Notes under the pieces: model-generated
What the model saw: only the letters and a program-made list of their open reading frames with translations
What the model was told of the DNA's origin: nothing
Databases searched by the model: none
In this document: piece after piece, positions 5,871 to 26,207 of the stretch
Layout of the letters: every line of letters begins with the position of its first letter
Numbering within the stretch: the stretch's first letter is position 1
Made by a program: the position numbers and the translations under genes
Assembly (NCBI GenBank): GCA_947165825.1
Contig: CAMVBX010000004.1
Location: 1-42,024 of the forward strand
DNA from: an uncultured Clostridia bacterium
GTDB lineage: Bacteria; Bacillota; Clostridia; Oscillospirales; Oscillospiraceae
Length of the DNA: 42,024 bases
Direction: 5' to 3'

Positions 5871-5912
5871 AGAAAAGCCGTTGCTTTCCAAATGGAGAGC
5901 AACGACTTTTCG
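5871..5912. repeat. Left copy of a 42-nt direct repeat forming a hairpin
   Basis: AGAAAAGCCGTTGCTTTCCAAATGGAGAGCAACGACTTTTCG, identical to 6085-6126; arms AAAAGCCGTTGCTTTCC / GGAGAGCAACGACTTTT around AAAT. Confidence 0.95.
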
Positions 5913-6084
5913 CAGACTGTAGACAAACCCGAAAATGGAACGAAAACGGGAAGGAAGATAGCGCGAAAGAAACCCAGGAGGGGTGTCTTTCGCGTTCAAT
6001 CAGAAGTTTTTCGAACAATTTCTACCGTATTTCCTGTTCGAAAAACTTGCTTCAGCGGGGCGACAAGACTTTGTCGACACGCTG
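5913..6084 (+). mobile_element. MITE-like non-coding element copy 1 (E1), 172 bp
   Basis: Ends CAGACTGTAGACAAA (5913-5927) and TTTGTCGACACGCTG (6070-6084) are 12/15 inverted repeats, exactly bounded by the 42-nt direct repeats; interior hairpins 5962-5994 (9-bp arms) and 6004-6048 (14-bp perfect arms). Confidence 0.7.
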
Positions 6085-6210: not shown

Positions 6211-6239
6211 TTGATAATCACTCCGGGATCATGTATAAT
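6211..6239 (+). promoter_or_regulatory. Sigma-A-type promoter upstream of the sigma-factor operon
   Basis: TTGATA-N17-TATAAT in an AT-rich intergenic region. Confidence 0.7.
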
Positions 6240-6347: not shown

Positions 6348-6893
6348 ATGACCGACGACGAACTGTATCGCACCTACCTGTCGGGTGACCGGACGGCGGG
6401 AGACATGCTGATGCTGCGCTATGCCGATGCGCTTACGGCATATCTGGCCGGCTTTCTTTCCAGCCCTGAGGAAGCAGAGGATCTGATGCTCGACTGCTTT
6501 TCGGTGATTCTTGTGGACAAGCCGCGCATCCGGGAGGGACATTTCCGTGCCTATCTGTTCCGGGTAGCGCGAAACAAGGCGAACCGCTTTTGGAGACGGC
6601 GGCTGAACAGACAGGAGTTCAGCCTGACTGAGGAGCTGCCCTCCCAGGAGGCGTCTCCGGAGGATGTGATCTGGACCGGAGAACGCAATGCCATCCTGCG
6701 GCGGTGTCTGAACCGCATCGCGCCCCAGTACCGGGAGGCGCTCTGGCTGTTTTACGATATGGAACTCAGCTATGCCCAGGCGGCGGAAGTGCTTGGCTGC
6801 GGGACCAAGAAGATCGAGGACCTGCTGAAAAACGGGAAGAAACGTCTCAAGCAGGAGCTGGAAAAGGAGGGACTGACCCATGCGGACATCTGA
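6348..6893 (+). CDS. RNA polymerase sigma factor, sigma-70/ECF-like
   Basis: Region 2-like (AEDLMLDCFSVILVDKPRIREGHFRAYLFRVARNKANRFWRRR) and region 4-like (YREALWLFYDMELSYAQAAEVLGCGTKKIEDLLKNGKKRLK). Confidence 0.88.
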   Translation: MTDDELYRTYLSGDRTAGDMLMLRYADALTAYLAGFLSSPEEAEDLMLDCFSVILVDKPRIREGHFRAYLFRVARNKANRFWRRRLNRQEFSLTEELPSQEASPEDVIWTGERNAILRRCLNRIAPQYREALWLFYDMELSYAQAAEVLGCGTKKIEDLLKNGKKRLKQELEKEGLTHADI

Positions 6894-7209
6894 ACAGCGC
6901 GTGGACGAGCTGCATCGCCGGATGACGCTGCGCCGCAAATCCAGGGTTCGACGGAACCGGCTGATCGGCACCTCGGCGGTCGCCGTCTTTCTTGCGGCAG
7001 CCCTGCTCTTTGCCGCCGACGTCTCCCGGAGCGAGGTGCAATTCCAGGGACCGAATTCAAGCATTGCCGCAGCCAGCATTTTTGCCGAACACGAGGCGAT
7101 CGGCTTTGTGCTGGTGGCGCTGGTGGCTTTCTGTCTGGGCGTGCTGGCGACGGTGCTCTGCCATCGGCTGAAGGCCGGGCAGACCGACGAGGAACCGAAG
7201 GATGATTGA
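6880..7209 (+). CDS. Small 2-TM membrane protein, candidate anti-sigma or signalling partner
   Basis: 14-nt overlap with the sigma gene; basic N-terminal segment and two hydrophobic helices. Confidence 0.75.
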   Translation: MRTSEQRVDELHRRMTLRRKSRVRRNRLIGTSAVAVFLAAALLFAADVSRSEVQFQGPNSSIAAASIFAEHEAIGFVLVALVAFCLGVLATVLCHRLKAGQTDEEPKDD

Positions 7210-7864
7210 CAGCATAGACAACTCTCTGCAGATCGCCGTCCTGCTGATCTGTGTGTTCACTGCAATCTATCGAGCGTTCCGGAAGGACGGCAGGGTCTGG
7301 ACGCTGCTGGCTCTTTTCAGCGGCAGTTGGGTATTGGGAGATCTGTACTGGCTATTCTGTCTGGTCTTTTTTGATACGACGCCGCAGCTTTCCGTGGTGT
7401 GCAACCTGAGCTGGTACGCCTGCTACATCTTCCTGTATATGCTGCTCCGCCAGGTCGCACCGCCGGAGACTTCAAGAGAACGGCGGTTTCTGCCATGGCT
7501 GGGCTTTGTGTTTTCCCTGGCGATGGCGGTCTTCTACTATTCCTTTTATCTCGACTGGACCGTCAAGCTGGGCGAGCAGTATCTGATGTGGGGCAAAGCC
7601 CTGGACAATCTGATCTACGGGGTGTTGATGGGTCTTCTCCTGTTCTCGGCAATCCGGAGATTGATGGACAGGCGGATCTATCCGGCCCAACGCTCGCTCT
7701 GCATCGTCGTTCTGGTCTTCTGTCTGCTGGAATACGGACTTTGGACCGTCTCCTGCTTCTGGTGGGGGGATACGCTGGCCAACCCCTATTATTGGTTCGA
7801 TTTCCTGCTGACGGTCGACTTTCTTCTCTTCCTGCCGGCAGTGAAAAAGGCGGTGGCGGAATGA
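7202..7864 (+). CDS. Polytopic membrane protein of unknown function
   Basis: About 6-7 hydrophobic helices; 8-nt overlap with the upstream gene. Confidence 0.8.
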   Translation: MIDSIDNSLQIAVLLICVFTAIYRAFRKDGRVWTLLALFSGSWVLGDLYWLFCLVFFDTTPQLSVVCNLSWYACYIFLYMLLRQVAPPETSRERRFLPWLGFVFSLAMAVFYYSFYLDWTVKLGEQYLMWGKALDNLIYGVLMGLLLFSAIRRLMDRRIYPAQRSLCIVVLVFCLLEYGLWTVSCFWWGDTLANPYYWFDFLLTVDFLLFLPAVKKAVAE

Positions 7865-8490
7865 ACTATATCGAAAACACCTATATCTGCCTGGCCGCGC
7901 CGCTGCTGCTGGCCATTCTTTGCCTGCGGGCGGACGCGCGCAGATCCCTTTCCTTTGTGCTTGCGGGCATGACCGCCTGCCTGCTTTCCGCCTATGTCAG
8001 CGCCTTTATCGCGGACACGAGCGGCACCGACCTGACCAGCGCCTCCTATGAGATCGCCCCGGTGGTGGAGGAAATCATGAAATCCCTGCCGGTGCTGTTC
8101 TATCTGCTGGTGTTTGAGCCGAAGAAGAGGAACGCCATCAGCGGCACGCTGATGACGGCGGTGGGGTTTGCCACCTTTGAAAACATCTGCTTTCTCACTT
8201 CCTTCGGCACGTCCGACCTCCTGCGGCTGCTGATCCGCGGCTTCGGCACCGGAGCAATGCATGTGGTGTGCGGCATGGTGGTGGCGATCGGTCTCTTCTT
8301 TCTCTGGGATCAGGTGTGGCTGCAGGCGGTGGGCGGCTTTGCGCTTCTCTGCGTCGTGATCACTTTCCACGCGATCTTCAACATCTTTGTGGGCCAGACC
8401 GGCGTCGTCTTCTGGATCGGCAGTGTGATCCCCCTGACGATAATGTTCCTCTACCATGCCTTCTTCCGCAGAATGATCCGCTTTGACTGA
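7861..8490 (+). CDS. PrsW-like intramembrane metalloprotease
   Basis: Motifs EIAPVVEEIMK, GFATFENICF, GAMHVVCGMVVA, FHAIFNIF in a polytopic protein; ATGA overlap with the upstream stop. The track start at 7399 is an upstream in-frame extension. Confidence 0.82.
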   Translation: MNYIENTYICLAAPLLLAILCLRADARRSLSFVLAGMTACLLSAYVSAFIADTSGTDLTSASYEIAPVVEEIMKSLPVLFYLLVFEPKKRNAISGTLMTAVGFATFENICFLTSFGTSDLLRLLIRGFGTGAMHVVCGMVVAIGLFFLWDQVWLQAVGGFALLCVVITFHAIFNIFVGQTGVVFWIGSVIPLTIMFLYHAFFRRMIRFD

Positions 8491-8513
8491 CTCTCCCCTG
8501 CCCCGCGCTATCC

Positions 8514-8536
8514 AAACGCCCCCTTGCGGGGCGTTT
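8514..8536. repeat. Left hairpin repeat flanking E2
   Basis: AAACGCCCCCTTGCGGGGCGTTT; differs from 8759-8782 by one missing G. Confidence 0.9.
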
Positions 8537-8758
8537 GAGTGTGTCGACAAAGTCGACACGCTTCGACCGGGACCCACTTCGTTGGGCTCCCGGTCGATTT
8601 GGTTTGCACTACGCTCCCCGCACTCGCTGCGCTCGCACAGTACGCTCCGTGAGCGGTATTTTGGCCCAGAAATGAATTCCGGGCCAAAATGGATCTTGAC
8701 TCTATTCGCGCCTACGGGCGCGAACTCTGCGAGGCTTTGGTACTTTGTCTACAGTCTG
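8537..8758 (-). mobile_element. MITE-like non-coding element copy 2 (E2), 222 bp, inverted relative to E1
   Basis: Ends GAGTGTGTCGACAAA (8537-8551) and TTTGTCTACAGTCTG (8744-8758, exact reverse complement of E1's left end); bounded exactly by hairpin repeats; interior hairpins ~8564-8596 and 8658-8690. Confidence 0.7.
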
Positions 8759-8786
8759 AAACGCCCCCTTGCGGGGGCGTTTTTTG
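8759..8786 (+). terminator. Rho-independent terminator (right hairpin repeat of E2)
   Basis: AAACGCCCCCTTGCGGGGGCGTTTTTTG. Confidence 0.8.
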
Positions 8787-8878
8787 CGTCTGAAAATTTC
8801 AAAACAGGGTTCGGGTTTTTTCCCGTTTTTGGACACTGATAGGATGAGCGCAATTTTTGGAGGGAGGAGTGTCCATTG

Positions 8879-9280
8879 ATGACGGATGCCGAGAGAGTCC
8901 AAGCCCTGTATGAGCGGGTCAAACGCTTGCAGCGGAAACGGGAACGGCGAAAAACGGCTTCTCTGAGCGTCGCCTGTACTGGCACGGGCCTGTGCCTGAT
9001 GCTGATGATCTTCGGCGGAGGCGGAGCGCACCGGGGCGGCACAGCCGGTCTCTTCACCGGAGCGACCATACTGTTTGAGGGTGCCGGAGTGTATGTGCTG
9101 GTGGCACTGCTGGCGTTTATGGCAGGTGTCGTGATCACGCTTCTCTGCCTCCGCAGGCAAAGACATCAACCGCGACCCCCAGGGGATCCCCAAATCCGGC
9201 CAAAGGACAGATCTCAGGATCAGTCAAAAGGCAGGTCACAGAATCACCACCAGGAAGAAGATACGGAGGAAAGACAATGA
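8879..9280 (+). CDS. Small 2-TM membrane protein, paralogous to 6880..7209
   Basis: RVQALYERVKRLQRKRERR and LVALLAFMAGVVITLLC align with RVDELHRRMTLRRKSRVRR and LVALVAFCLGVLATVLC of the earlier protein; RBS ggagggaggag. Confidence 0.75.
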   Translation: MTDAERVQALYERVKRLQRKRERRKTASLSVACTGTGLCLMLMIFGGGGAHRGGTAGLFTGATILFEGAGVYVLVALLAFMAGVVITLLCLRRQRHQPRPPGDPQIRPKDRSQDQSKGRSQNHHQEEDTEERQ

Positions 9281-12200
9281 GAACCAAGCGCATCTTATCT
9301 GTTTTGCTGGCGGCGTGCCTCCTGTTCGGGTTGATCCCGGCGGCGGCAATGCCTGTCCGGGCCGCAAACGCCGACCCGGTCTACAACCGCGCCGCCACGC
9401 CGGAGTACATCATCTTCAATGCGAAAAGCGGCGACAGCGAGGACTACTTCAAAAGCGTGATGAAGGATTCCAAGTTTAACGCCGTGGCCGACGGCAAGTT
9501 CGTCCTTTACAACAGCGACACCAAGCTGAAGTATGACACCAAGGTCAGCCAGATCGGCCTGAGCGAATATGTCTGGGACGACTTCCGCTTTTCGAACCTG
9601 GCCAATCTCAGCGACATGTGCGATGAGCTGGAGGTTGGACTGGCCGTCACGCTGACCACCAACCCCCATAAGCACACCTATGACCTGCTCTACACCGCCA
9701 ATATCCTCAGCTATATGGACGTGGTGCTCAGCAAGAATGTCATGGACATAGGCGACGGCATCTACAAGGCCAACGGCTACTCCAAGTCCATGACCACGCT
9801 GCGCCGGGGCAACGCCACCTTCCGGGACATCCCCGCGGCCGTCTACGCCACGTCGGAACAGAACGGCGCCCCCCTGGTGCTGAACTTCTGGAACTATGAG
9901 AAAACCTACGACGGCGGCACCCGGACCTGCAAGTGCGGCGGTTCCGCCAAGGATACCGTCGTCAGCTTCTACGACGGCACCGCGCCGGAGCTCGTTTCGA
10001 TGGACCTCTCGGCCATACGCGGCGGCGTGGCCATCCCGTATTGCTGGGACTTCGGCAAGGGCGACATCATCAACATCGAGCTCACGTTCTCGGAGCCCCT
10101 CCGCTTCGCCGACGACAAGGCAGCCGGCAAGGGCGACGTGTGTGTCGGCCTGATGGTGAGCGGCCACACCGACCAGATCCCCGCCTATCTGACCAGCCTG
10201 GACGGCAACAAGCTCACCTTCCAGTGCGAGGCGCCCAGCGTGATCCCGACGGGCGAGACCGGCGTCTGGTCGGTCACCGGCGTGGATCTGACCGGCTCAC
10301 AGACCGGCGGAAAGGGCCTGATGAGCAAAAAGACCATGGACACCGGCATTCCTCTCACCTATATCTACGGCAACAACAAGACCTATACGGCCACCAAGCC
10401 CAACAGTGCCTCCAGCGCGGTGGGCTACACCGAGGCTACCAGCTATGTCACCGATATGGCCGGCAACAGCCTGATTGCCAGATATCTGAACAACTACATC
10501 ATCATCGAGGACAACATCATCCCCAGGAGCTTCTACATCGACATCCAGGATCCCTATGTGGCCCGGGCCGACATCATCCCGAGCGAGAGCTACAACGCCG
10601 ACGTCAAGCAGCTGCTCGGAAAAACCGGGATGACGCCGAACACCGCCAACTATGAGGACGCAAGCGACCGTTACCTGGGCGTGGGCGACAGCTTCAAGGT
10701 GAAGCTGTACATGAACGAGCTTTTGTACTGCAGCACCTGGCCGACCATCAAGCTGAACATCACCTACGACGGCAACCCGAACTGGAAGGTCGAGCTGAAT
10801 TCTTTAAGAAGCTACACCGCCAGCGCCACCGATGTGAGCGCCGACTGTGGCCTGGGCATCTCCAAGGGACAGGTCACCGTGTTCGAGACCGGCTACTTCG
10901 TCATCACTGACGACATGCAGGTGGATCCCGCCAGCGAGGACGGAGTCGTCGTGATCGAATCGATCAACTTTGGAAACGGGGTGACGGACTACGCGGACAA
11001 CCCGGCCCAGAACGTCACCTCCCAGCTGGACATCGCCCAGGATTTCCTCCTGGATACCGACCTGCCGTCGGTGTCGCTGGATCCCGCTGTCCAGATCGGC
11101 GGCGTCAACAATAGCTTCTACTTGCCCTTCACGACGACGGACAGCGGGTCCGGCGTACTCCGGCTGCCCGGCAAGCTGAAGCTGCAGGACCCGAGCGGGT
11201 CCACGCTCCCGTTCCAGTACGCCCTCACCGACTCCCCGAACACCCCCTCCGCCTGGAGCAGCGGAACCATGGGCAGCTACATCGAATTTAGCCAGACCAC
11301 GACCAAGCAGTACCTGCACTTCAAGCCGGTGAGCGGGGCGGCCTACAACGCTGCGCTGGTCTTCAATCTGATGGACTATGCGGGCAACGTGGGCGACGGC
11401 AGTCCGCAGTATATCACCGGCGCCGCCTTGGACAGCCTCCCGCCCACTGTCAAGGCGACGGGCAGCAGCAGGGGCTATGACAACATCACCAGTGTGGGTA
11501 CCCTTTCGGTGGACATCGACGTGCAGGACGTCAGCGACGTCAGCAAGGTGGAGTACACCTGGCAGGTCTACACCGTCGACCGGGACGCCGTGGAACTTCT
11601 GCTCGACAGCAGCTGGACCGCCTCCGTCAAGGAGAACGACGCATGGATCGCCGAAGCCGCAGTGCCTGGAGGCACCCTGTTCCAGAAGAACCTCTGGGTG
11701 CGGGCTACCGACGCCTTCGACTACACCAGCCTCACAAACCTGGGCGAGTTCAGCTACGACCTGGCGAGTGACGTGAAATTCGAGCTGGAATACTCCACCG
11801 ACATCCAGACAAAAGCCAGCCTGAAGTTTACAGAGTATGATTCTGAAACCGGTTTGCTGGTCATAGACGTCATGCGCGACAACAGCGATGTGCACATGAT
11901 CCTCTTGGTTTCCGATGAAATCTTAGAGAGAAAAGACATTTTTCAAAATCTCTTCGATCAAACTTTTGTTTTCAGTCAGGCAGAAATCAACAATGATAAC
12001 GGAGTGCGTTATACTGAGAAACAAGGTTGGTACTACAAACCGTTTGAGGACTACACCGGCAACCTGTATGTGACCGTCTACTCCGGAAATGAAAACGCAA
12101 TAGAGTGCGATGACTGGTATTACGTCGGTGAAGAAGGAAATAAAACTGCGTACAGAGACATCACGATCAACAACACCGCCTCGGTGCAGCGCTTCACCCT

Positions 12201-15200
12201 GCGGCAGGCCGCGCTCAGCGCTACCGCTTACGACGTGTTCAGCGGCGACGTTAAGACTCTGTTCACCCCCGCCAGCAGCGCGGACGATGACAAACTCACC
12301 GGCGTAGTCACGGTCGTGCCCTGGACTGTGGATTCCGAGGAGCGTTACTCCACCACCCTGGCGGGCGTACAGGTCAAGTTCAACCTGGGCGGCGACAAGA
12401 ACGGCTGGGATTACGAGGATATCGACTGGCAGAACTCCTTCCTTGACCTGTACAAGGGAGGCTATAGCTCACCCACAGAAAACGAGGCAGAGCGCGAGAA
12501 GCTGCTCGACGGGACGTTCCGGCTCTGCGCCATCGGCAGCGGGCCGGTCCAGACGATCACCCTGCCGGATTCCGACCTCTATGACGATTTCCTCTACGGC
12601 GACATCTACCTGATCCTGGCAAGGCACAGTGCGCCGGACGCGCCCTATTTCATCCGGTTAAGAACGTCAGAAGATCTCATAATCAACCTCGACGACACTG
12701 AGCCCGGCGTCCTTGAGCTGCAGCACCTGGGTCGGCAATACTCGCCGGATGAGTACATGTACATCGAGAAATATTACCGTGACCTTTCCTTCGATCCGAG
12801 CACCACGATCTATATCCCGGCGGACAGGACGCCGGTGGTGCTTTCGGTGGAGGCGATGAAGGAATCCTGGGATGAAGACACCGGCGAAAGGATCCTGGAA
12901 CCCCACGATCTGTATAATGTTAGTAACGGCGCAGGCTACCGGGGCGCCATGGACATCGTCGCCTGGAACGCGGCCGACCCGGACACGAAGATCAGCCTGG
13001 ACCTCGCCTGGCTGATGTATAAGAACGATAACCTCGAAGGCGAAAACGAGGAGTTCCTCATCTCGCTGAAAGAGGTGCGGGACGGCGACTACAACCCGTT
13101 CGCTTACGGGAGAGTCTGGCTGAATGATACCAGCAAGCGGCTGCTGCGCTTCGGCCCGGAGACCGACGCGTCGGCGGGCGTCATCGGCGTGACGCCGGAC
13201 AGGGACAACATTGTCGCCCTGCAGATCGTCTACGCCAACGGGCGGACCTCCGGCATCACCTATCTCACTATCCACCCGGTGACGATGAAGGCGGAGGGCA
13301 CGGTGTCCGTCGAGACGAAGGACGGCCTCCAGCTCAGCCCCGGCAGCATCGCCACCGTCGGCCCGGACGAGGCGACCGTCGTCTTCACCCCTTCGGCCGA
13401 CACCAACACCCTGGGTCTGGACTTCACCCTCACGGCGATCGATCCGAATACGAATCAATTCACTTGGAGAGATCCGATCCCGATGGTCGCCCGAAGCGAC
13501 GGCAGCTACGCCGCCCAGATCCCGAATGCGGATTTCTGGCACTATTTTAAGGATAAGGAGGAGACTAACAACAGCATATACCCCGGCGTCATTCTTCCGG
13601 TTGGATACGGCAATTATACCTCCGGATACGAATACCGTGAAGATGGGCCCCTCTGCTTCTTCACGGTCTACGCCACGGACCAGTATGAGAATAAAGTCGT
13701 GATGGGTACTGCGGACTGGGGCGTCATCCCGGACGCCACGCCTCCGATATTCGTGGACGATCATTTTAATGAAATGGGAGAGATCGAGGACCATGGAGAC
13801 GGCACCTATACCGCCAGCTTCCGAATCATCGACGACAGCCTCTTCTCCCGGGATGCGGAAACGGGAACCTTCCTGTCCCGCCCGATGGAGCTGGAGTTCT
13901 TCTATGGGACGAAGTATGCCGAGGCCGCGGGAAAGCCTGCGGGCAGACTGACCTTCGCCGGCGTGGAAGACGGCTTCGAATGGACGGCAAGCGAGGGGAA
14001 CAACCTGGGCATCTACCGGGTCACGGCGGAGCGGACCTACTTTGTTGCTGCGGAGCTGGAGGGCGGAGTCGTATTAGGTTATCCCGTTCTGGAAGTCACC
14101 GCTGAGGGCGTGATCAGCCCCGAGATCACGGCCGCCACCGATATGACCCTGTTCCTCCGGGGCACCGACGCCCACGGCAACACCAACGTCTGGAATATGC
14201 CCGACCCGGACGATGTATTCTATCAAGAGGCCCTGGATCCCGGCGGCTATTGGCGCCTGGACAATCCCGGCTTCGTAACCGCATGGGACGTCACCGGCAA
14301 CACGCCGGAGGCCGTAAGCTGGCAGTACGTGCCAACCGGCGCGGGCGACGACATGGGCCTGGAGATCACCTTCAACGTGCCGGTGCTGCCCGAGGCGAGC
14401 TGGATCGATCCCGATCCCGGTGCTCAAGGATTCAGCTGCGTGTGGCAGGACGCCTTCCCCATCTGGAAGGACGGGGAGTGGACGATCAGCTTCTATGACG
14501 CTTACGGCAATCTCTATAACCAGACCCTGACGCTGGACGACGTTATCGGCGACTACGGCATCGACCTGAGCTTCTCCACGCTGGACTATGTGGCGGCGGA
14601 GACCGGCGTTGTGATCACGGCGGCGGAGGACGGCGAGGGCGAGACGGTCACCGGCAGCACCACCGCCACGGCGAACGGCGTCTACACCGTGGAGCGCACC
14701 GCGGGCGGCAAGACGGACGTCCTGACCATCCATCTGACGAACATCGTCTCCGGCGGCCCGGAGACCAGAGTGTTCTTCTACCTGGAGGAGTTCGGCGAGA
14801 TGTACGAGGCTGGCGCTGAAGATCAGTTCCAGGGCACGACCTACGGCCCGGTGGTAGTCTCTTACTCCACCGACCGGGAGACCAGCCCTGTGGGCGAGAA
14901 CACGATGACCTTCAGGAGCGGGGAAAACGACGAATTTATCTTCCAGTATTACGACATCCCCACCGACTTCACCTATACGATCAGCGGCAAGCTCTACGAA
15001 GACTACGGCATTACCCTGGGCGCGCCGCCGGAGCCCATTCCGGATGAGGAGGCCCCGCTCATCGACCTGGTGACCCTCTGGAAGCAGCGGGGCGGCGGCT
15101 TTGAGCAGACCAACGCCTTCCCCGGCAGCGCGGAGGAAACGGACATCAGGAGCGCCATCGAGGAATCCGGCCTGGCCCAGAGCTTCGACTTTGTGGTGAA

Positions 15201-17148: not shown

Positions 17149-17155
17149 GGAGGGG

Positions 17156-20100
17156 ATGAACGTGACACATTGCAAACGTTTTTTGGCAGTTCTGCTATTC
17201 TTCGCCCTGCTCCTGCCCATGCTGCCTATCTCGGCGCTTGCCGCGAATGAGGATGTGGTGCAGATCGACAACGGATACATCGAGGTCAGCGTTTCCACGA
17301 AAAACGGCGGATTCCACGTGAACACCGTGGAGGGCAACCTGCTGAGAAAATCCGACAACAACAAGAACCTGCTCTACCACAGCGGAAGGTATGACACCTC
17401 CTTTGTCTCCTTCCGCGTGGGAAGCGGCGCGAACGCCAAGGACTATCTGTTCGGCGGACAATATCCCGGCTCCAGCGAGATCGTGGTCACAAAGATGGCG
17501 AGCGGCGAGCTCGTCGCGGCCTGGGCGGTGGACGGCATTACCTTCACCCAGACCATCTCTCTGGCGGCGGAAAACTCCAGCGAGCACGGCATGGTTTCCA
17601 TCAACCTCTCGGCGATGAACACCAGCGGCGCGGCGGTCCCGATCCAGGCGCGTATCCTTCTGGATACGTGTCTGGGGGATCAGGACTATGCCCACTACCA
17701 GATCAACGGCGGCGCGGTGACCCACACCCTGGACACCGAGCAGATCATCACCGACGAGGCCGCTCTCCGGAGCTTCTATGCGCTGGACGATCTGGCCAAT
17801 CCGGGGGTCACGGCCTACGTGGTGTCCAATCCCGCGAAAGTGGCCATCGCCCACTGGAACAATCTGGCGGCGAGCCTGTTCGACTTCGCGCCGGATACCT
17901 CGATGAACTTTACCAACCCCATCAACGTCTACCTGACGGCGGACAGCGCCTGCGCGCTGTACTATGATCTGGGCACTGTGGCGAACGGTGCGGCCAAGTC
18001 GGCAGTCGGGTACTACGGCGTTTACTCCAACCACACGGTCAAGCTGCAGAACAGCGTGGCTATCAACGCGGTGGCGCCGATGCGTCTGACGCTGAACGAC
18101 AGCAAGACGGCCTATGTGCGCGAGAGCGCCGTGGGCAGTGCGGACTTCGCCGTGACAGTCAGCGCAGAAAACTTCAAGAGCGGCACTTCCCGGGAACTGA
18201 GCAACGTGATCTTGGCGGTGCACAGCTCCTCGGGCCTCCGTTCGCTCAGCGACAGCGGCGCGGAGCTCGGCATCGACTACGAATCCACTGATCCGCTGAT
18301 GATCCCCTATGACAGGATCGCAGAGGGGGAGACTATCACCAAGACCCTGTACTTCCAGGCAAAGAAGGGGGACAGCACCAGCTATGAGCGCATCACCATC
18401 GGGATGTACCAGGGCGAGGTGACTAGCGAGAACCTGCTGGGCGAACGGTATGTCTATCTGCTGCTGCCCGGCGGCGACGGGAGCATTCCGAAGGTCTGCT
18501 TCAATTCCATGACGCCTGAGATCATCTACAACACCGGAACCCGTCACCTGTATGTGGCGGTGACCAACGCGCTGCTGCTGAGCGACGCGCTGGATGCCGG
18601 CCACTGCGTGTTCATGGCGTACAGCACCGACGGCAAGAAGGCGTGGGAAATCCCCTCGGACAACATCACCGTCGACGTCAGCGCGGGCGTTGCGGATGTG
18701 GCGCTGACCGACGAACTCAAGCTGGCGGTGGGAAGCTGGAAGCTGCAGCTGGAGTGGACCGACGAAGCGGTGTCCCAGGAGATCGTTGCGTCGACCTACC
18801 AGAAGCAGACTGCCGATAAGCTGAAGTTCCAGATTTCGGACAACCCGAAATATAAGAATGACACCTACGGCGTTTTGGCGGCAGTCAAATACGGCAAGGG
18901 AACGACGCAGTACCCCTACTACTATCGTCTGCAGAGCTTTGCGGACGAGTCGAGCTATAAGCAATTTGCCGAGGCAAAGGAACACGAATGGGTGGAGATC
19001 CCGCTGGTCCTCCGCGGCGCGTTCACTGCGGATCAGCGCTATGGGGAGAAGGGCGAGAACGGCAAGCTTCTCAGCAGCTACTATTACAGCGCTGTCAGCA
19101 AAAAGTCCGTGGACCCCAAAACCAGGGAGACCAACGTCGATAACCCCATTACCATCAACAACTGTCTGGACTTTGAGGGCGGCAGCATCGCCATTTACTA
19201 CGAGAACTACGAGAGCAAGGATGCTGTGAGCTCGGCGATCTGCGTGGAGTTTGACGGCGACCTCTACACCAGCGACGCCCGCACCTCGGTCTGGACCGGC
19301 AAGGCGGCGCTGACCAAACTGGAGCAGGGCGGAGACTTTGCGCTGATCCACTACGACGCCAACGGCAACCGGAAGCAGAGCGATGCTACCCCCATCACCC
19401 TGATCTGGCCGAACGTTTTTGGCATGGCGCAGACGCTGGCCGGCATGGCCTTTAAGCTCGCCTACGGACAGTTCGGCGTGATGGAGAAGGACGGCAAAGA
19501 GATCGGCCGTGTGATTTCCTTTGCGGCAAGTCTCAGCCTGAGCTTCCTGAGATCTCCGGAGGGCGATAAAACCGACTACGGCACGGCAAGCTACTTTGGC
19601 CGGATGCAGGAGCTGTGGAAGGACTGGCGGGGCGCCAGCATCTATCAGTATGCCTACCACGGCGGCCGGTACGAAAAGCTCGTTGACATCGGCATGAACG
19701 ACAGGAACAAAAGCGAAGAGACTCAGCAAGGAGTTCAGACGTCGGTCATGGTGCCGGATATCCTCTTCGGCTGCGGCGAAGGCCTTGTGGGCCTGAACTT
19801 CACCGTGGACGTCACCGTCCGGAACATGGTGGAGTCTCTGGCGAAGATCGAGGCAGCGCTGTCCATCAACACCATCAACAACTGGTCCTTCGGCATGGAG
19901 GGCAAGTGCGAGTTGATCGACGACATCAAGATGGAGGCGAAGCTCAAATTCAAGAGCTACAACAACATTCCCGTCCCGGATGAACTGTACTTCTATGTGG
20001 GCGGGTTCAAGCCCGGCCTCTGCATCGATCCCTGCGGCGTGGTCTGGATCACCGGCGCGGGCGGCGGTTTCTCCGGCCTCTACGACACGATCTTCTACAC

Positions 20101-23100
20101 CGGAGGGATCCCGCCGCTGAAGCTGATCATGACCATGAGCTTTGCTGCCCTGCAGATTCTGGAGGGGACGGCAAAGATGGAGGTGTCGGGCTCCGGCGTC
20201 AACATCACTGCCAGCAACCTGAAGATCCAGGACACGATCGAGGTCGTCAAGAAGATCTCCGTGGGGCTGCAGTGGTATCCCGATCTGAAGCTCACCGGCG
20301 CGGTCTACGTCAGCATGTTTGAACGGACGATCGAAGGCCAGGGTTACATGATCATTCTGGGGAAGAACTACACCGACTGGTTCTTCGAGATGTTCGTGCG
20401 TGCGGCACTGCAGATCCCGGATTCGATCCCCGTGGTCGGCGGCATGGTGATCGCCGCGGTGGATCTGGGCGTCAGCACCGAGAAGATCTGGGGCGCGCTG
20501 GAAGCGCTGAAGATCGTGGTGGGCGTTACCTACTACTGGGGTGAGGATTCCGTCGACTTCGGGTCCGGCAGCAAGGCCCACCCCACCTATCCCAACCTGC
20601 TGCTGAACGGCTATGACGGCGAGTGCGAGGACTTCCCGATCGCCTATGACGAAGAAAACGGCCGCACGCTCTATGCCCACTTCGGAACCAACTTTGAATC
20701 GCCCCGGGGCGCACAGATCCTGTCTGACGGCGATCTGATCCTGATGGGTACGGAGGGTGTGTTCTCCAACGGCAGCAAGACCAGCCACAGATTCAACCTG
20801 GGCGCCTACAATGGAGTGAACAACGCCTCCACGGTGGTGCAGATCAGCTATCATGCGGAGAGCCCGGAGGAGGCGGAGAGCCTGGCCCGGAGCTTCACCG
20901 TGATCGATGAGAATCAGACCGCCTTCCCGCTGACCTTCTACGACGGCACCAATCTGGACAGCGCCAACGCCAATGTCAGCTGGGATGCGGACACGACTGC
21001 GGAAAAGAACGCGACCTTTGCATTTACAGTGACGGACGCAAACCAGTTCGGCAAGGACTGGAACCTCTCCACCGGTCAGACCAAGGCGGATGTGGTGCTT
21101 TACAACGTGCTTCCTGTGCCGGAGGTCACTGAAGTCTCCACATCCGGTCCGCTTGCCGCGGGCAGCAGCACGACGATCCGTTGGGCAGGCACCGGGCTGG
21201 AGGAGCTGGACAGCATCAGTTTCTTCCTGGTGACGAGCGAAGACCCCACTGAGGACGCGGGATATCCGGTGGGGAGCGCTGTCACCGAGGGGATCGGGGC
21301 CGGCAGTGTCACCCTGACCGTACCCGGCGATGTGCCTGCGGGCGAATACTATCTGCGGGCAGTGTACAGCAAAGACGATCAGCTCAACGGCATTGTCCAC
21401 AGCAACGGCAAGATCACGGTGACCAATCCCAACACTCCCGCAGACGCGGGCGCGATCCTTGTCACTCCGGCAGGGGACCTGCGATATAACGTCACCATCC
21501 CGGAGACGGACGATCCCAATACCACAGGTTACGCTGTCACGGTTTACAACGCCGACGGCAGCGCCACCGACATCACAGGCATGACCTTTGACAAGGCCGA
21601 AAGCGGCGACACGATCCTGACGGTGGGCGGCAGCTATACCGCGCCGGTCCGTTCCAGCGCCGATGATCCGGATTCCGCGGTCAACGGCACGGAGACCGTG
21701 GGACTGGAGGCCGGCAGGAACTACCGCATCGGCGTTACGCCGTATCAGACGCTGGATACCGATTGGGACGGAGAACCGGATACGATCGTCTACGGCGAGG
21801 AGACTGTGGTTTCCGCCGGGACGCTGCCCCAGGCGGTGACTCCCACCGCCGTGCTGACGGCGGAAGGCCAGACCATGACGGCCCTGGCGGATATGGCGGA
21901 GGGCGACCCGATCCCGGTGTTCACCTCCGGCGATCTGGAGATCGCAGCCGCCTTCTCCGAGACGGTCAACGGCAGCTGGACGCTGGACAACGGCGAGGTG
22001 TGGAGCGCTGAGGAAGGCTCTGACACGGATCTTGTCTCCGGCAGCTTTGCCGACGCAGCGGAGACCGCCATCTCGCTCAGAGGCCTGAGCGACGGCAGTC
22101 ATATCCTGCGCGTCTCCGGTCAGGCGGCCGACGACGGCGATCGCTTTGTCTACGAATACCACTTCACCGTGGATACCACCGCCCCGCGCCTGCTGCTCAG
22201 TGCTCCGCTGAACGGCAGCGTGTTCGGCAAGAACGGCGCGCTGGAGATCGCCGGCGTGACCGATACTGACGCCCTGCTGACGGTCACCATCGACGGCCGG
22301 ACGGTCATTGACAGCCAGACAGTCGAGCAGGCGAGCGGAACCCTCGACACAGACGGCGTCTTCTCAATCAACACCACGATCCCGGATCCCAACAGCGCAG
22401 CGACCCACACGGTGGTGATCTCCGCCGCCGATGAAAACGGCAACTGCACCGAGGAACAGGTCATTACGGTGGCCCATCCCGGCCTGGGCGACCTGGTCGA
22501 TCTGGTGCTGATGGCCGACGGGTCCATCCCGGCGGACGGCAACATTGCCACCGCTGCGGCCGGAACCGCGCAGCTCACCCTGTTGGGCGTCACCTCGGAC
22601 GGCACACGGTTCGTCCTGGATTCGGACGTCGTCTACTGGAATTGCATCGCGGCGGAAGGCGCTGCGTCGGTTGACGCCGACGGCATGCTGACCTATGACG
22701 CCTATACCAAGGGCTATGTGGAAGCCATGGTGGAGGTCACTGCCGGCGCTTATCGGAGCGCGGCATTGACCCTCGGCTCCGAACCGCAGAACGGATATGT
22801 GGCGGTGTCGAGCACCGTGGGCGGCACGGCTGAAGGCGGCGGATATTATGCCGTCGGCGAGACCGTGACCCTGACCGCCATACCGGATGAGGGGTATGTC
22901 TTTGACTGCTGGGAGATCACCGGCGTGACGGCAAACGACCTGACCTCTGAGACGGTCACCTTCACGATGCCGTCCGGCAGCGTGGAGGCCAAGGCAAACT
23001 TCAAGGCAGAGGGCGCCCCGGAGGAGCCCGAGTACACCGTGAGCTTTGACACGGACGGCGGCAGCACGGTTGCTCCGCAGACGGTGAAGAACGGCAAGAC

Positions 23101-24004
23101 GGCAGCTAAGCCCGCGGACCCGACCAAGGAAGGCTATACCTTCGGCGGTTGGTACCTGGGCGAGACGGCGTACGATTTCAGCACGCCCGTCACGAAAAAC
23201 ATCACGCTGAAGGCGAAGTGGACCGAGAAATTCAATCCCGCACCCGGCCCGAATGTTCCGTATCTGCCAGACGAAAGCAGAATCGGATACGCGGACGTTC
23301 CGGAGGACGTTGACCCGAACCGTTACGTTCCTTATACCATCGACGCAGACGGGAACAAGACGATCATACCCATCTCCTCGGTGATGGAGGACGGCAGACT
23401 GGCGTATCTGAAGCCGGTCGGCGGGCAGGTGTTCTTCTTGGAGAATCCGGTGACCTTCAGCGACATTGACGGCCACTGGGCAAAAGACAACATCATCTGG
23501 ACGGCGGCGCACGGACTGTTTAACGGCATCGGCGGCGGCCGCTTCAATCCTCAGGGCACGATGACGCGGGCGATGTTCGTGACGGTGCTCTATCGGATGG
23601 CCGGATCGCCGAAGGTGACGGGCACCAGCAAGTTCGCTGATGTGCCGGCGGACACTTGGTATACCGACGCGGTGACCTGGGCTTCGGCCAACGGGATCGT
23701 CAACGGCGTCAGCGACACGGAGTTCGCTCCGAACAGAGATGTGAACCGGGAGCAGATGTGCGCCATGGTGGCTCGCTTCCTGCGCACCTTCAGTTATGCC
23801 CTGAAGCTGGGCGAGAAGGTCGAATTCAAGGACGCCGGCCTGATCTCGTCCTGGGCGGCGGTTGATGTGGAGTACTGCCAGCGGGCAGGAATCATCAACG
23901 GCAAGCCCGGCGGCGTGTTCGATCCGAAGGCCAACGCCACCCGTGCGGAGAATGCCACGGTGATGAAGCGCATGGTCGAAGCGATCATTACGAGCTTGAA
24001 ATAA
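17156..24004 (+). CDS. Giant (2282 aa) S-layer-homology (SLH) anchored surface protein
   Basis: Signal peptide; InlB/Flg_new-type repeat YTVSFDTDGGSTVAPQTVKNGKTAAKPADPTKEGYTFGGWYLGETAYDFSTPVTKNITLKAKW; three C-terminal SLH modules (VTFSDIDGHWAKDNIIWTAAHGLFNGIGGGRFNPQGTMTRAMFVTVLYRMAG...). Confidence 0.92.
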   Translation: MNVTHCKRFLAVLLFFALLLPMLPISALAANEDVVQIDNGYIEVSVSTKNGGFHVNTVEGNLLRKSDNNKNLLYHSGRYDTSFVSFRVGSGANAKDYLFGGQYPGSSEIVVTKMASGELVAAWAVDGITFTQTISLAAENSSEHGMVSINLSAMNTSGAAVPIQARILLDTCLGDQDYAHYQINGGAVTHTLDTEQIITDEAALRSFYALDDLANPGVTAYVVSNPAKVAIAHWNNLAASLFDFAPDTSMNFTNPINVYLTADSACALYYDLGTVANGAAKSAVGYYGVYSNHTVKLQNSVAINAVAPMRLTLNDSKTAYVRESAVGSADFAVTVSAENFKSGTSRELSNVILAVHSSSGLRSLSDSGAELGIDYESTDPLMIPYDRIAEGETITKTLYFQAKKGDSTSYERITIGMYQGEVTSENLLGERYVYLLLPGGDGSIPKVCFNSMTPEIIYNTGTRHLYVAVTNALLLSDALDAGHCVFMAYSTDGKKAWEIPSDNITVDVSAGVADVALTDELKLAVGSWKLQLEWTDEAVSQEIVASTYQKQTADKLKFQISDNPKYKNDTYGVLAAVKYGKGTTQYPYYYRLQSFADESSYKQFAEAKEHEWVEIPLVLRGAFTADQRYGEKGENGKLLSSYYYSAVSKKSVDPKTRETNVDNPITINNCLDFEGGSIAIYYENYESKDAVSSAICVEFDGDLYTSDARTSVWTGKAALTKLEQGGDFALIHYDANGNRKQSDATPITLIWPNVFGMAQTLAGMAFKLAYGQFGVMEKDGKEIGRVISFAASLSLSFLRSPEGDKTDYGTASYFGRMQELWKDWRGASIYQYAYHGGRYEKLVDIGMNDRNKSEETQQGVQTSVMVPDILFGCGEGLVGLNFTVDVTVRNMVESLAKIEAALSINTINNWSFGMEGKCELIDDIKMEAKLKFKSYNNIPVPDELYFYVGGFKPGLCIDPCGVVWITGAGGGFSGLYDTIFYTGGIPPLKLIMTMSFAALQILEGTAKMEVSGSGVNITASNLKIQDTIEVVKKISVGLQWYPDLKLTGAVYVSMFERTIEGQGYMIILGKNYTDWFFEMFVRAALQIPDSIPVVGGMVIAAVDLGVSTEKIWGALEALKIVVGVTYYWGEDSVDFGSGSKAHPTYPNLLLNGYDGECEDFPIAYDEENGRTLYAHFGTNFESPRGAQILSDGDLILMGTEGVFSNGSKTSHRFNLGAYNGVNNASTVVQISYHAESPEEAESLARSFTVIDENQTAFPLTFYDGTNLDSANANVSWDADTTAEKNATFAFTVTDANQFGKDWNLSTGQTKADVVLYNVLPVPEVTEVSTSGPLAAGSSTTIRWAGTGLEELDSISFFLVTSEDPTEDAGYPVGSAVTEGIGAGSVTLTVPGDVPAGEYYLRAVYSKDDQLNGIVHSNGKITVTNPNTPADAGAILVTPAGDLRYNVTIPETDDPNTTGYAVTVYNADGSATDITGMTFDKAESGDTILTVGGSYTAPVRSSADDPDSAVNGTETVGLEAGRNYRIGVTPYQTLDTDWDGEPDTIVYGEETVVSAGTLPQAVTPTAVLTAEGQTMTALADMAEGDPIPVFTSGDLEIAAAFSETVNGSWTLDNGEVWSAEEGSDTDLVSGSFADAAETAISLRGLSDGSHILRVSGQAADDGDRFVYEYHFTVDTTAPRLLLSAPLNGSVFGKNGALEIAGVTDTDALLTVTIDGRTVIDSQTVEQASGTLDTDGVFSINTTIPDPNSAATHTVVISAADENGNCTEEQVITVAHPGLGDLVDLVLMADGSIPADGNIATAAAGTAQLTLLGVTSDGTRFVLDSDVVYWNCIAAEGAASVDADGMLTYDAYTKGYVEAMVEVTAGAYRSAALTLGSEPQNGYVAVSSTVGGTAEGGGYYAVGETVTLTAIPDEGYVFDCWEITGVTANDLTSETVTFTMPSGSVEAKANFKAEGAPEEPEYTVSFDTDGGSTVAPQTVKNGKTAAKPADPTKEGYTFGGWYLGETAYDFSTPVTKNITLKAKWTEKFNPAPGPNVPYLPDESRIGYADVPEDVDPNRYVPYTIDADGNKTIIPISSVMEDGRLAYLKPVGGQVFFLENPVTFSDIDGHWAKDNIIWTAAHGLFNGIGGGRFNPQGTMTRAMFVTVLYRMAGSPKVTGTSKFADVPADTWYTDAVTWASANGIVNGVSDTEFAPNRDVNREQMCAMVARFLRTFSYALKLGEKVEFKDAGLISSWAAVDVEYCQRAGIINGKPGGVFDPKANATRAENATVMKRMVEAIITSLK

Positions 24005-24015
24005 CCTGGGACAGA

Positions 24016-24049
24016 GGACAGGGCGCCTGATGCTTCAGGCTCCCTGTCC
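24016..24049 (+). other. Strong intergenic hairpin between the SLH giant and subtilase genes
   Basis: GGACAGGG(C)GCCTGA-TGCT-TCAGGC(T)CCCTGTCC; no following U-tract on the + strand. Confidence 0.7.
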
Positions 24050-24058
24050 TGCAAAAAG

Positions 24059-25474
24059 ATGATGAAACAGAGAACAGCGATTCTATTGGTATTTTGTCTC
24101 CTGTTCACGCTGGTCTGTCCGGTCGGGGCGGCGGAGGAACCCATCCGCATCGGGTTCATCGACAGCGGGATCTCCGTCAAGCATATCGATCCCGGTCATG
24201 TAGCCGAGGGGAGAAATTATGTGTTTCCGGAAGCGGACACCCAGGACCGGATCGGCCACGGAACCGCCACGGCAGGCATGGTGTTGGGCGCGGAAGACCA
24301 GGGTGTGGCCGGAGTGTTTCCCGAGGCGGTTGCCGTCCCGCTGGTGGTGGTGGACGCCTATCCCTCCGGCGCGATCGAAAACGGCGGGCCCGCGGCGCTC
24401 TGTGCGGCGCTCCGCGACGCGGTAGATGAGTTCGGCTGCAGGATCATCAACATCAGCCTCTCCACTCCGGAGGACTCAGAGGAGCTGCGGGATGCCGTCG
24501 CCTATGCGGAGAGCCGGGGCGTCTTGATCGTCACCTGTACGGGCAACGACGGCGAAGACGGAACTGTTTACTATCCCGCCGCCTATCCCACGACGGTTTC
24601 GGTGGGGTCGGCGGAGGGGGATCATCCCGCCTCCTTCTCCCAAACGGGTGCGGACCTGTTGACCGACGGCGTGGGTCTGACCGCGGCGACGAACAAGAAC
24701 AGCATCGCTTCCACTGTCGTCAGCGGGACGTCCTACTCCTGTGCGATCGTCTCCGGTCTCTGCGCGAGGCTGCTGACGCGCTACCCGGGCCTGACTCCGG
24801 CAGAGGTGCGGCAGACGCTCTATGCACTGGCGGCGGACCTGTTGGAGCCGGGCTATGATGCCCGCAGCGGATGGGGATATCTTCCGCCGGACGTCACGAT
24901 CCCGTACCCCTATCTGGATGTAGCGGCAGATGCCTGGAGTTATCCCGCGATCTGCTATGTCACAGAGACAGGCGCGATGAACGGCGTGGGGAACGGGACC
25001 TTCCGGCCGAACGGAACGATGACTCGGGCCATGTTCGCTGCGGTGCTTTACCGCATGGCGGGAGAGCCGGAGGCAGCAGACGAGAATCCGTTTTTCGATG
25101 TGGAGAACGGGGCCTGGTACGCCGGCGCCATATGCTGGGCCGCCGGGGAGGGGATCATCACAGGGTATCATGACGGAAGTTTCGGTCCGGAGGACCCGGT
25201 GACCCGGGAACAGCTGGTGACGATCCTCTGGCGTTTCTGCGGCAAGCCAGAGGGGCTGAGCGACCTGTCCGGTTTCACCGACGCGGGCAGCGTCAGCAGC
25301 TGGGCGGAGGAGGCCTTCCGCTGGGCTGCTGGTGCAGGTATCATCGGCGGAAGACCGGGCGGCATCCTCGACCCGAACGCCGCTGTAAGCCGAGCCGAGG
25401 CCGCGCAGATCCTGATGAGGTATCTGGGGCAGCCTGATGAGCATTTGTCAATTCTGGAGGCCGTTGCAAATTGA
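24059..25474 (+). CDS. S8 (subtilisin-like) serine peptidase with C-terminal SLH domains
   Basis: IGFIDSGI (Asp), GHGTATAGMV (His), CTGNDGEDG (oxyanion Asn), GTSYSCAIVSG (Ser); SLH modules from ~24907. Confidence 0.92.
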   Translation: MMKQRTAILLVFCLLFTLVCPVGAAEEPIRIGFIDSGISVKHIDPGHVAEGRNYVFPEADTQDRIGHGTATAGMVLGAEDQGVAGVFPEAVAVPLVVVDAYPSGAIENGGPAALCAALRDAVDEFGCRIINISLSTPEDSEELRDAVAYAESRGVLIVTCTGNDGEDGTVYYPAAYPTTVSVGSAEGDHPASFSQTGADLLTDGVGLTAATNKNSIASTVVSGTSYSCAIVSGLCARLLTRYPGLTPAEVRQTLYALAADLLEPGYDARSGWGYLPPDVTIPYPYLDVAADAWSYPAICYVTETGAMNGVGNGTFRPNGTMTRAMFAAVLYRMAGEPEAADENPFFDVENGAWYAGAICWAAGEGIITGYHDGSFGPEDPVTREQLVTILWRFCGKPEGLSDLSGFTDAGSVSSWAEEAFRWAAGAGIIGGRPGGILDPNAAVSRAEAAQILMRYLGQPDEHLSILEAVAN

Positions 25475-25705: not shown

Positions 25706-26207
25706 ATGCTGGATCAGCAAAAAACCACGATTCTGTACTGCCGCCTCAGCAATGAGGATCAGATAGATGGGGAGAGCAACTCCATCCAGAATCAACGCGA
25801 TGTTTTAACCCGATATGCTGATCTCCCGCTGCTACGAGGATACGGTACTCGGACATCTCAGCCGTGAGCGTTACGAAAAAATGACGCAGGGATACGAAGA
25901 GGAACAGGAGCGCCTGAAAGCAGAGGTAGAGACGCTGGAAGAATGGGTGGTGAACGAGGAAGAAATGGACGGCAACATGGACAGCTTCCTCGATGTGGTT
26001 CAGCGGTACGTGGACGTGCCGGAACTGACGCCCACGATCGTAAACGAGTATATCAAGAAAATCATCGTTTACGCGCCGGACAAATCCAGCGTTCATCGGC
26101 AGCAGAAGGTGAAAATCTTCTGGAACTTCCTTGACGAAACCGCCATCCCCGATATTGAGGGAACTGTTGTATATAAAAGACCCCTGAAAACGCAGAAAAC
26201 GGCGTGA
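25706..26207 (+). pseudogene. Decayed large serine recombinase (TnpX/TndX-like): N-terminus joined out of frame to C-terminus
   Basis: N-terminal MLDQQKTTILYCRLSNEDQIDGESNSIQNQRDVLTRYA in one frame; C-terminal YEDTVLGHLSRERYEKMTQGYEEEQERLKAEVETLEEW...YIKKIIVYAPDKSSVHRQQKVKIFWNFL in another; central region missing. Confidence 0.82.

Follow-up and report, generated by a model that had tools for sequence, protein, structure and literature searches.

Why should a sigma factor and an intramembrane protease be encoded directly in front of two giant exported proteins and a subtilase? This question is raised by a 42,024-nt stretch of the genome of an uncultured Clostridia bacterium of the family Oscillospiraceae (assembly GCA_947165825.1, contig CAMVBX010000004.1), hereafter called the window. 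An earlier note on this DNA, made from the letters alone, had proposed a self-contained envelope-sensing module in which proteolysis frees a sigma factor that drives a surface assembly, with the subtilase processing the assembly or feeding back. Here we describe a conserved cassette that consists of an extracytoplasmic function (ECF) sigma factor, two paralogous proteins with two transmembrane (TM) segments (tmA and tmB), a 7-TM protein and the protease PrsW. Its sigma factor is predicted, with strong support, to read a dedicated promoter in front of tmB and a large, variable exported protein, which we call the cargo.

Organization of the locus

All eight open reading frames (ORFs) previously noted between 6348 and 25474 were found in the ORF calls and run in one direction. 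The overlaps of 4-14 nt that had been mentioned were also seen, namely 14 nt between the sigma gene and tmA, 8 nt between tmA and the 7-TM gene, 4 nt between the 7-TM gene and the PrsW gene, and 4 nt between tmB and giant1. Giant1 and giant2 are separated by 7 nt, and giant2 and the subtilase by 54 nt. The gene content given in the earlier note thus stands, but the genes form two transcription units, and the starts of PrsW and tmB were corrected to 7861 and 8879, respectively; that tmA and tmB are paralogues is a point absent from that note. Unit 1 (sigma, tmA, the 7-TM protein and PrsW) is preceded by a housekeeping-type promoter. Unit 2 (tmB, giant1, giant2 and the subtilase with S-layer homology (SLH) repeats) begins at an ECF-type promoter motif, which lies together with a terminator-like hairpin in the 388 nt between PrsW and tmB. 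The features are listed below by their positions in the window; all are on the + strand.

6211-6239, +, housekeeping (sigma-70 type) promoter, TTGATA-17-TATAAT, 11 of 12 consensus matches
6348-6893, +, ECF sigma factor (Pfam regions 2 and 4, orthologue alignment, -35 covariation of residues 157, 158 and 161)
6880-7209, +, tmA, 2-TM protein, candidate anti-sigma factor (14-nt overlap with sigma, conserved N-terminus, paralogue of tmB)
7202-7864, +, 7-TM membrane protein, no family assigned, candidate sensor or scaffold (AlphaFold model with seven helices)
7861-8490, +, PrsW-family intramembrane metalloprotease (PF13367, 2.5e-13; invariant catalytic residues)
8765-8777, +, terminator-like hairpin between the units
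8813-8848, +, ECF-type promoter motif, -35 core GGGTT at 8813-8817, -10 core GACACT at 8832-8837 (motif discovery, scan and held-out test)
8879-9280, +, tmB, tmA paralogue, first gene of the putative sigma-driven unit (profile comparison)
9277-17148, +, giant1, exported, 2623 aa, weak Ig-like match at the C-terminus (relatives behind the cassette in L081 and L125)
17156-24004, +, giant2, exported, 2282 aa, three SLH repeats at the C-terminus (relatives known from L081/L167 and L125/L168)
24059-25474, +, exported subtilase with three SLH repeats (relatives adjoin giant2 in genomes G825 and G826)

Conservation and distribution of the cassette

A search with the sigma factor in 150 genomes of the same family returned a block of close relatives, whose neighbourhoods contain sigma, tmA, the 7-TM gene, PrsW, tmB and a giant gene in the same order. 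The PrsW alignment alone was then compared with one genome per species for 84,980 species, giving 367 relatives, the best 80 of which were taken for locus analysis. Because gene calls trained on the GC-rich window missed AT-rich genes, the cargo genes of these loci were called from ORF length and position. In almost all of the best 80 loci, which come from several Firmicutes families, the order sigma-tmA-7TM-PrsW-tmB-cargo is retained. Directly upstream of PrsW, the 7-TM gene was found in 71, the sigma gene in 68 and tmA in 61 of the 72 loci with enough upstream sequence, and tmB follows PrsW in 66 of the 72 with enough downstream sequence.

The 80 loci include members of Lachnospiraceae, Oscillospiraceae and Erysipelotrichaceae as well as Mogibacterium and Butyrivibrio. 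According to the record titles, at least 59 of them derive from ruminant-gut catalogues (a raw count with no baseline). The 7-TM gene is present in 6 of 295 sampled genomes of the order and in 4 of 398 sampled genomes of the phylum, one of the latter matches being weak; therefore, the cassette is widespread but sporadic. One further species (L081, genome G825) has all eight genes, with the subtilase, in the same order. A second further species (L125, genome G826) has the same set, but its subtilase and most of giant2 are located on another contig.

The genome of the window holds a second cassette of a more distant subtype (sigma, tmA, 7-TM and PrsW; L058) at the end of contig C5. This locus lies at 36.2 kb to the end of the contig, which cuts the cassette, and its tmB and cargo were not located. 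Tandem or near-adjacent cassettes occur in L094, L095 and L089, sometimes with one cargo gene common to both, and a sigma gene of the second subtype lies 4 kb after the subtilase in L168 (11019-11553).

Promoter motif upstream of tmB

Motif discovery in the gap between PrsW and tmB yielded two versions of one element, mostly located 25-60 nt before tmB. The version of clade I, to which the window belongs, is GGatTTTTcC..tTTT.gGACACTtA, and that of clade II is GGGAatTTtcg..TTTtatGTATCTATA. Their log-likelihoods are 499 and 525, compared with about 107 and 114 for shuffled sequence. In a held-out test on half of the loci, 85% of the unseen sites scored at least 12 bits, compared with 0.14% of the shuffles. 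In L049, L051 and L057, which represent the more distant subtype, the promoter reads GGGTGAG..GCGACTAA by eye.

When 3.17 Mb were scanned on both strands at a threshold of at least 20 bits, 70 matches were obtained, of which 65 precede tmB and five (in L074, L118, L121, L128 and L131) directly precede other giant exported ORFs. The site in the window scores 36 and is the sole real match in its own genome; one further match there has three mismatches, and a reversed control yields as many. Butyrivibrio INlla21 also has one site. Among eight further genomes, five have one site, two have none and one (G829) has three; each of the two extra sites in G829 precedes an exported protein, one of about 1230 aa and the other cut by a contig end.

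Autoregulation of the sigma gene was considered and ruled out. No match in the 3.17-Mb scan lies upstream of any sigma gene, none of the 77 upstream regions of sigma genes contains the ECF-type motif above the shuffled range, and the sigma operon of the window has the sigma-70 type promoter at 6211-6239 instead.

Covariation between the sigma factor and the -35 element

The product of 6348-6893 matches Pfam Sigma70_r2 (2.1e-9) and r4_2 (3.5e-10), and its profile matches the structures of SigH, SigW and SigE. Regions 2 and 4 and nothing else are present, as in ECF factors (PF04542 at residues 22-85 and PF08281 at 116-167 of 181 aa). The protein may already carry a published ECF group number.

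The 175 sigma columns of 58 loci were compared with the -35 element by permuting labels within the two clades, with the PrsW columns serving as a control. The three top-ranking columns are D158 (z 10.5), E157 (z 7.8) and K161 (z 6.1), and the PrsW control columns, which reflect shared ancestry, reach a maximum z of 5.4. In a gapless alignment, D158, E157 and K161 correspond to T171, K170 and H174 of SigW, which contact the -35 DNA in the crystal structure of the Bacillus subtilis SigW-DNA complex (PMC6713349). The residues at 157/158 pair with distinct -35 elements: ED with GGGTT, DN with AGGAGT or AGGAAT, EN mostly with AGTGAT or AGTGGT, and DH or DK with GGGGA. The clade II loci with DN (L111 and L115) have a -35 element of the same kind as the clade I loci with DN, which argues against mere common descent. 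No covariation of sigma with the spacer bases was seen. Covariation with the -10 element was considered and set aside, as the -10 variants mostly track the two clades and point to no particular contact region. Based on the motif and the covariation, it is strongly supported that the sigma factor of the cassette reads promoters of the type found at 8813-8848.

Membrane proteins of the cassette

The profiles of tmA and tmB match each other with a probability of 99.8%, and the two proteins have in common the motif MRTSEER[IV]xxLHxR at the predicted cytoplasmic end. tmA is 109 aa long, and a loop of about 25 residues joins its TM segments; its predicted structure, of modest confidence, has one long helix running through TM1 and a second TM helix. 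The tmA gene overlaps the sigma gene and occupies the usual place of anti-sigma genes. Judged by eye, the genes behind the more distant sigma factors of this group encode one-TM proteins whose N-terminus is likewise short and basic. It is likely from these sequence features that tmA acts as an anti-sigma factor.

PrsW is a 209-aa stand-alone protein, in which E70, E71, E107, H134 and H170 are invariant among 14 sequences. A site-2 protease (Peptidase_M50, 1.5e-56) is encoded elsewhere in the genome (G000:C42:2142-3155); this is weak evidence for regulated proteolysis because all 14 control genomes have one. The 7-TM protein has no sequence match in Pfam or the PDB. Its model has a predicted local distance difference test (pLDDT) score of 94.6, and the best Foldseek matches are 7-TM receptors and rhodopsins. 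These matches (E 0.037 or worse) are not significant, and therefore we claim no class for this protein. We infer that PrsW cleaves tmA and that tmB serves as a feedback copy.

Cargo proteins

The gene behind tmB usually encodes a very long exported protein. Among the 64 cargo ORFs examined, 41 are complete, with a median of 1282 aa and a maximum of 3054 aa, and incomplete ones reach 3178 aa at the sequence end. A simple hydrophobicity scan indicated a signal-peptide-like start in 59 of the 64. The cargo falls into about 30 groups without detectable mutual similarity. The domains found among the cargo scanned are Ig-like, InlB-type, LRR, FctA, collagen, choline-binding, dockerin and fn3; the scan of this cargo revealed no toxin domain. 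The spacing between tmB and cargo is between -20 and +60 nt in 48 of 61 loci, with an overlap of exactly 4 nt in 14 of the 61.

Cargo other than giant proteins follows tmB in some loci. In L088 and L097, the cassette precedes biosynthetic genes of a peptide type. L088 has a radical SAM/SPASM gene and then an ORF resembling a C39-type peptide exporter. L097 has AMP-binding-like and carrier-like genes and small peptides that look Nif11-like by eye and have no Pfam match. In L103 (11084-11539, Butyrivibrio sp. INlla21), tmB is followed by a gene for a VapA-like protein of 151 aa (PF05526, 2e-29), a family that is unexpected as cassette cargo.

Full-length relatives of giant1 of the window stand behind the same cassette in L081 and L125 (43% identity). 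Giant2 contains SLH repeats (2.5e-34), and its relatives in L081/L167 and L125/L168 are 54-68% identical. In both L081 and L125, the two giants recur as a pair behind the cassette. G022 encodes a more distant pair, with no cassette in the stretch examined. Giant1 was considered and rejected as a general partner of the cassette, as its close relatives are confined to few genomes and the cargo is variable. The subtilase (Peptidase_S8 3.3e-34, SLH 4.2e-38) follows giant2 in the L081 genome and follows the giant2 relative on the other contig in the L125 genome. It belongs to the cargo type of the giant1/giant2 sub-lineage and not to the cassette in general. Directly downstream of it, at 25815-26207, what is left of the C-terminus of a serine recombinase (DUF4368, 4.7e-21) may be a trace of earlier mobility.

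Proposed mechanism and alternative explanations

We consider it probable that the cassette serves a single dedicated promoter, from which tmB and a large exported cargo are expressed, and that it is controlled via tmA and PrsW with feedback by tmB. In this mechanism, the sigma operon would be made from the housekeeping-type promoter without autoregulation, as its upstream sequence supports. The short cytoplasmic N-terminus of tmA likely tethers the sigma factor at the membrane. A signal, probably passing via the 7-TM protein, would cause PrsW to cut tmA, and a site-2 protease would complete the release. The free sigma factor would then read the GGG-N15-GACACT-type promoter, a step for which the support is strong, and tmB and the giant surface genes would be expressed, tmB being coupled to the first giant via the 4-nt overlap. 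Carrying the same N-terminal motif as tmA, tmB would re-capture the sigma factor and thereby limit the output. In the sub-lineage of the window, the cargo would be giant1, the SLH-anchored giant2 and the SLH-subtilase, which may process the giants.

The central part of the proposal in the earlier note, a self-contained module with the sigma factor driving surface genes, is borne out at the level of sequence by the co-occurrence across families, the dedicated promoter before tmB and the giant, and the covariation of sigma with the -35 element. Two findings had been named there as arguing against it. The first, inconsistent co-occurrence in relatives, is not the case in the gene neighbourhoods, and the second, a lack of sigma dependence of the giant genes, is contradicted at the level of sequence by the promoter evidence. 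Feedback by the subtilase did not hold as a general feature, as the subtilase is found behind the giants solely in the giant1/giant2 sub-lineage.

Several points weigh against the proposed mechanism. tmA was undetected in 11 of the 72 loci, and its N-terminus has no match to a known anti-sigma family in Pfam and profile searches. Cargo that is not giant exists in some loci (L088, L097 and L103). The covariation test controls for the two clades and uses PrsW as a control, not a full phylogenetic model. The substrate assigned to PrsW is a guess, as is the part given to the 7-TM protein.

Among the alternatives, the one that survives best is that tmA and tmB are membrane assembly or export helpers for the giants, the sigma factor being controlled otherwise by the 7-TM protein and PrsW or by its level. 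The frequent coupling of tmB to the start of the cargo would suit such helpers, as would the second TM segment, which is at least as conserved as the N-terminus. However, tmA lies within the sigma operon and overlaps the sigma gene in the window, the motif common to both proteins is at the predicted cytoplasmic end, and the one-TM proteins behind the distant sigma factors have a similar basic N-terminus. We regard the helper function as unlikely.

It is less probable still that PrsW acts on the giants or on tmB during export and that its place in the sigma operon just ensures co-production. For polymorphic toxin systems, processing of exported proteins by PrsW domains has been proposed (PMC3482391), but PrsW of the cassette would be expressed with sigma and tmA, from the housekeeping-type promoter, rather than with the cargo. 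Moreover, the cargo is unrelated between loci, and thus the loci have no common candidate substrate of PrsW except tmA and tmB.

The feedback suggested in the earlier note can be extended to the idea that the SLH-subtilase belongs to the switch itself, where it would cut the anti-sigma factor or feed back on it; this appears very improbable. The subtilase is kept beside giant2 in the L081 and L125 genomes; against this, the 80 cassette loci, as far as they extend, showed no relative of the catalytic domain, many of these loci ending within or shortly behind the giant gene, and the G826 relative is a 367-aa ORF without the SLH part. In addition, the genome of the window encodes another subtilase on contig C1 (L059), directly followed by a 3077-aa SLH giant and two SLH proteins, with no cassette in the stretch examined.

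Finally, these genomes commonly encode ECF sigma factors, PrsW and SLH proteins, each in its own right, but a chance neighbourhood of generic genes with no functional link can be dismissed, as the synteny counts rule out chance adjacency and the promoter motif and the sigma/-35 covariation also contradict it.

Repeats flanking the sigma operon

Repeats resembling miniature inverted-repeat transposable elements (MITEs) flank the sigma operon of the window at 8528-8767 and about 5912-6084, each within a duplicated terminator hairpin. The element at 8528-8767 has 26-nt inverted ends at 8528 and 8742. Its end, TTTGTCTACAGTCTGA, has 84 matches with up to two mismatches in the genome, compared with one in a reversed control. 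Since many of these matches lie within 60 nt of contig ends, the MITE-like element probably helps to break the assembly.

Comparison with known systems

In outline, the cassette may work like the SigW/RsiW/PrsW/RasP system of B. subtilis. Both have an ECF sigma factor with regions 2 and 4 only, a membrane protein encoded directly after it, a catalytically intact PrsW and a site-2 protease in the genome. In contrast to that system, PrsW of the cassette is located in the sigma operon, the candidate anti-sigma factor tmA is a 2-TM protein with a short N-terminus, a second copy (tmB) stands behind the target promoter, and a 7-TM protein is always present. The cassette has one promoter per genome instead of a broad regulon. 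tmA lacks the class I domain with the HxxxCxxC zinc motif of RsiW-type anti-sigma factors, has no N-terminal CxxC and matches no Pfam anti-sigma family. Because this feature and autoregulation of the sigma factor, both of which were tested, are absent, the cassette is not a member of the SigW/RsiW type.

CsfT/RsiT of Clostridioides difficile is a clostridial ECF sigma system controlled through PrsW. The literature covered contained no description of a cassette that combines a 7-TM protein with twin 2-TM proteins. The SigI/RsgI systems of cellulosomal clostridia likewise dedicate alternative sigma factors to surface-displayed proteins; they differ in that the sigma factor of the cassette matches ECF models and tmA has no extracellular sensor domain. 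The polymorphic toxin systems with PrsW also associate this protease with variable exported proteins. There, toxin and PrsW domain form one fusion protein, without mention of a sigma factor (PMC3482391), whereas PrsW of the cassette is a separate protein.

The earlier note did not recognize the gene set as a described system, and no description of it was found in the open-access papers searched. We tentatively propose, with rather less confidence than would allow us to call it probable, that it represents an undescribed cassette widespread among Firmicutes of the rumen and gut. Its ECF sigma factor, which serves one promoter, would be controlled by the 7-TM protein and PrsW via twin 2-TM anti-sigma factors. 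tmA would set a threshold, and tmB, induced and translated with the giant cargo, would provide feedback. The cargo would be freely exchanged, and sigma factor and promoter would co-evolve through a readable -35 code that separates paralogous cassettes.

The natural series of matched sigma/-35 pairs makes promoter recognition by ECF factors directly testable. The layout, in which the sigma operon itself encodes PrsW and the 7-TM protein while another anti-sigma-like copy follows the target promoter, is likewise a testable arrangement for signalling. Rumen and gut Firmicutes have very large surface proteins that lack annotation, and for many of these the cassette would offer a common explanation and a searchable promoter signature.

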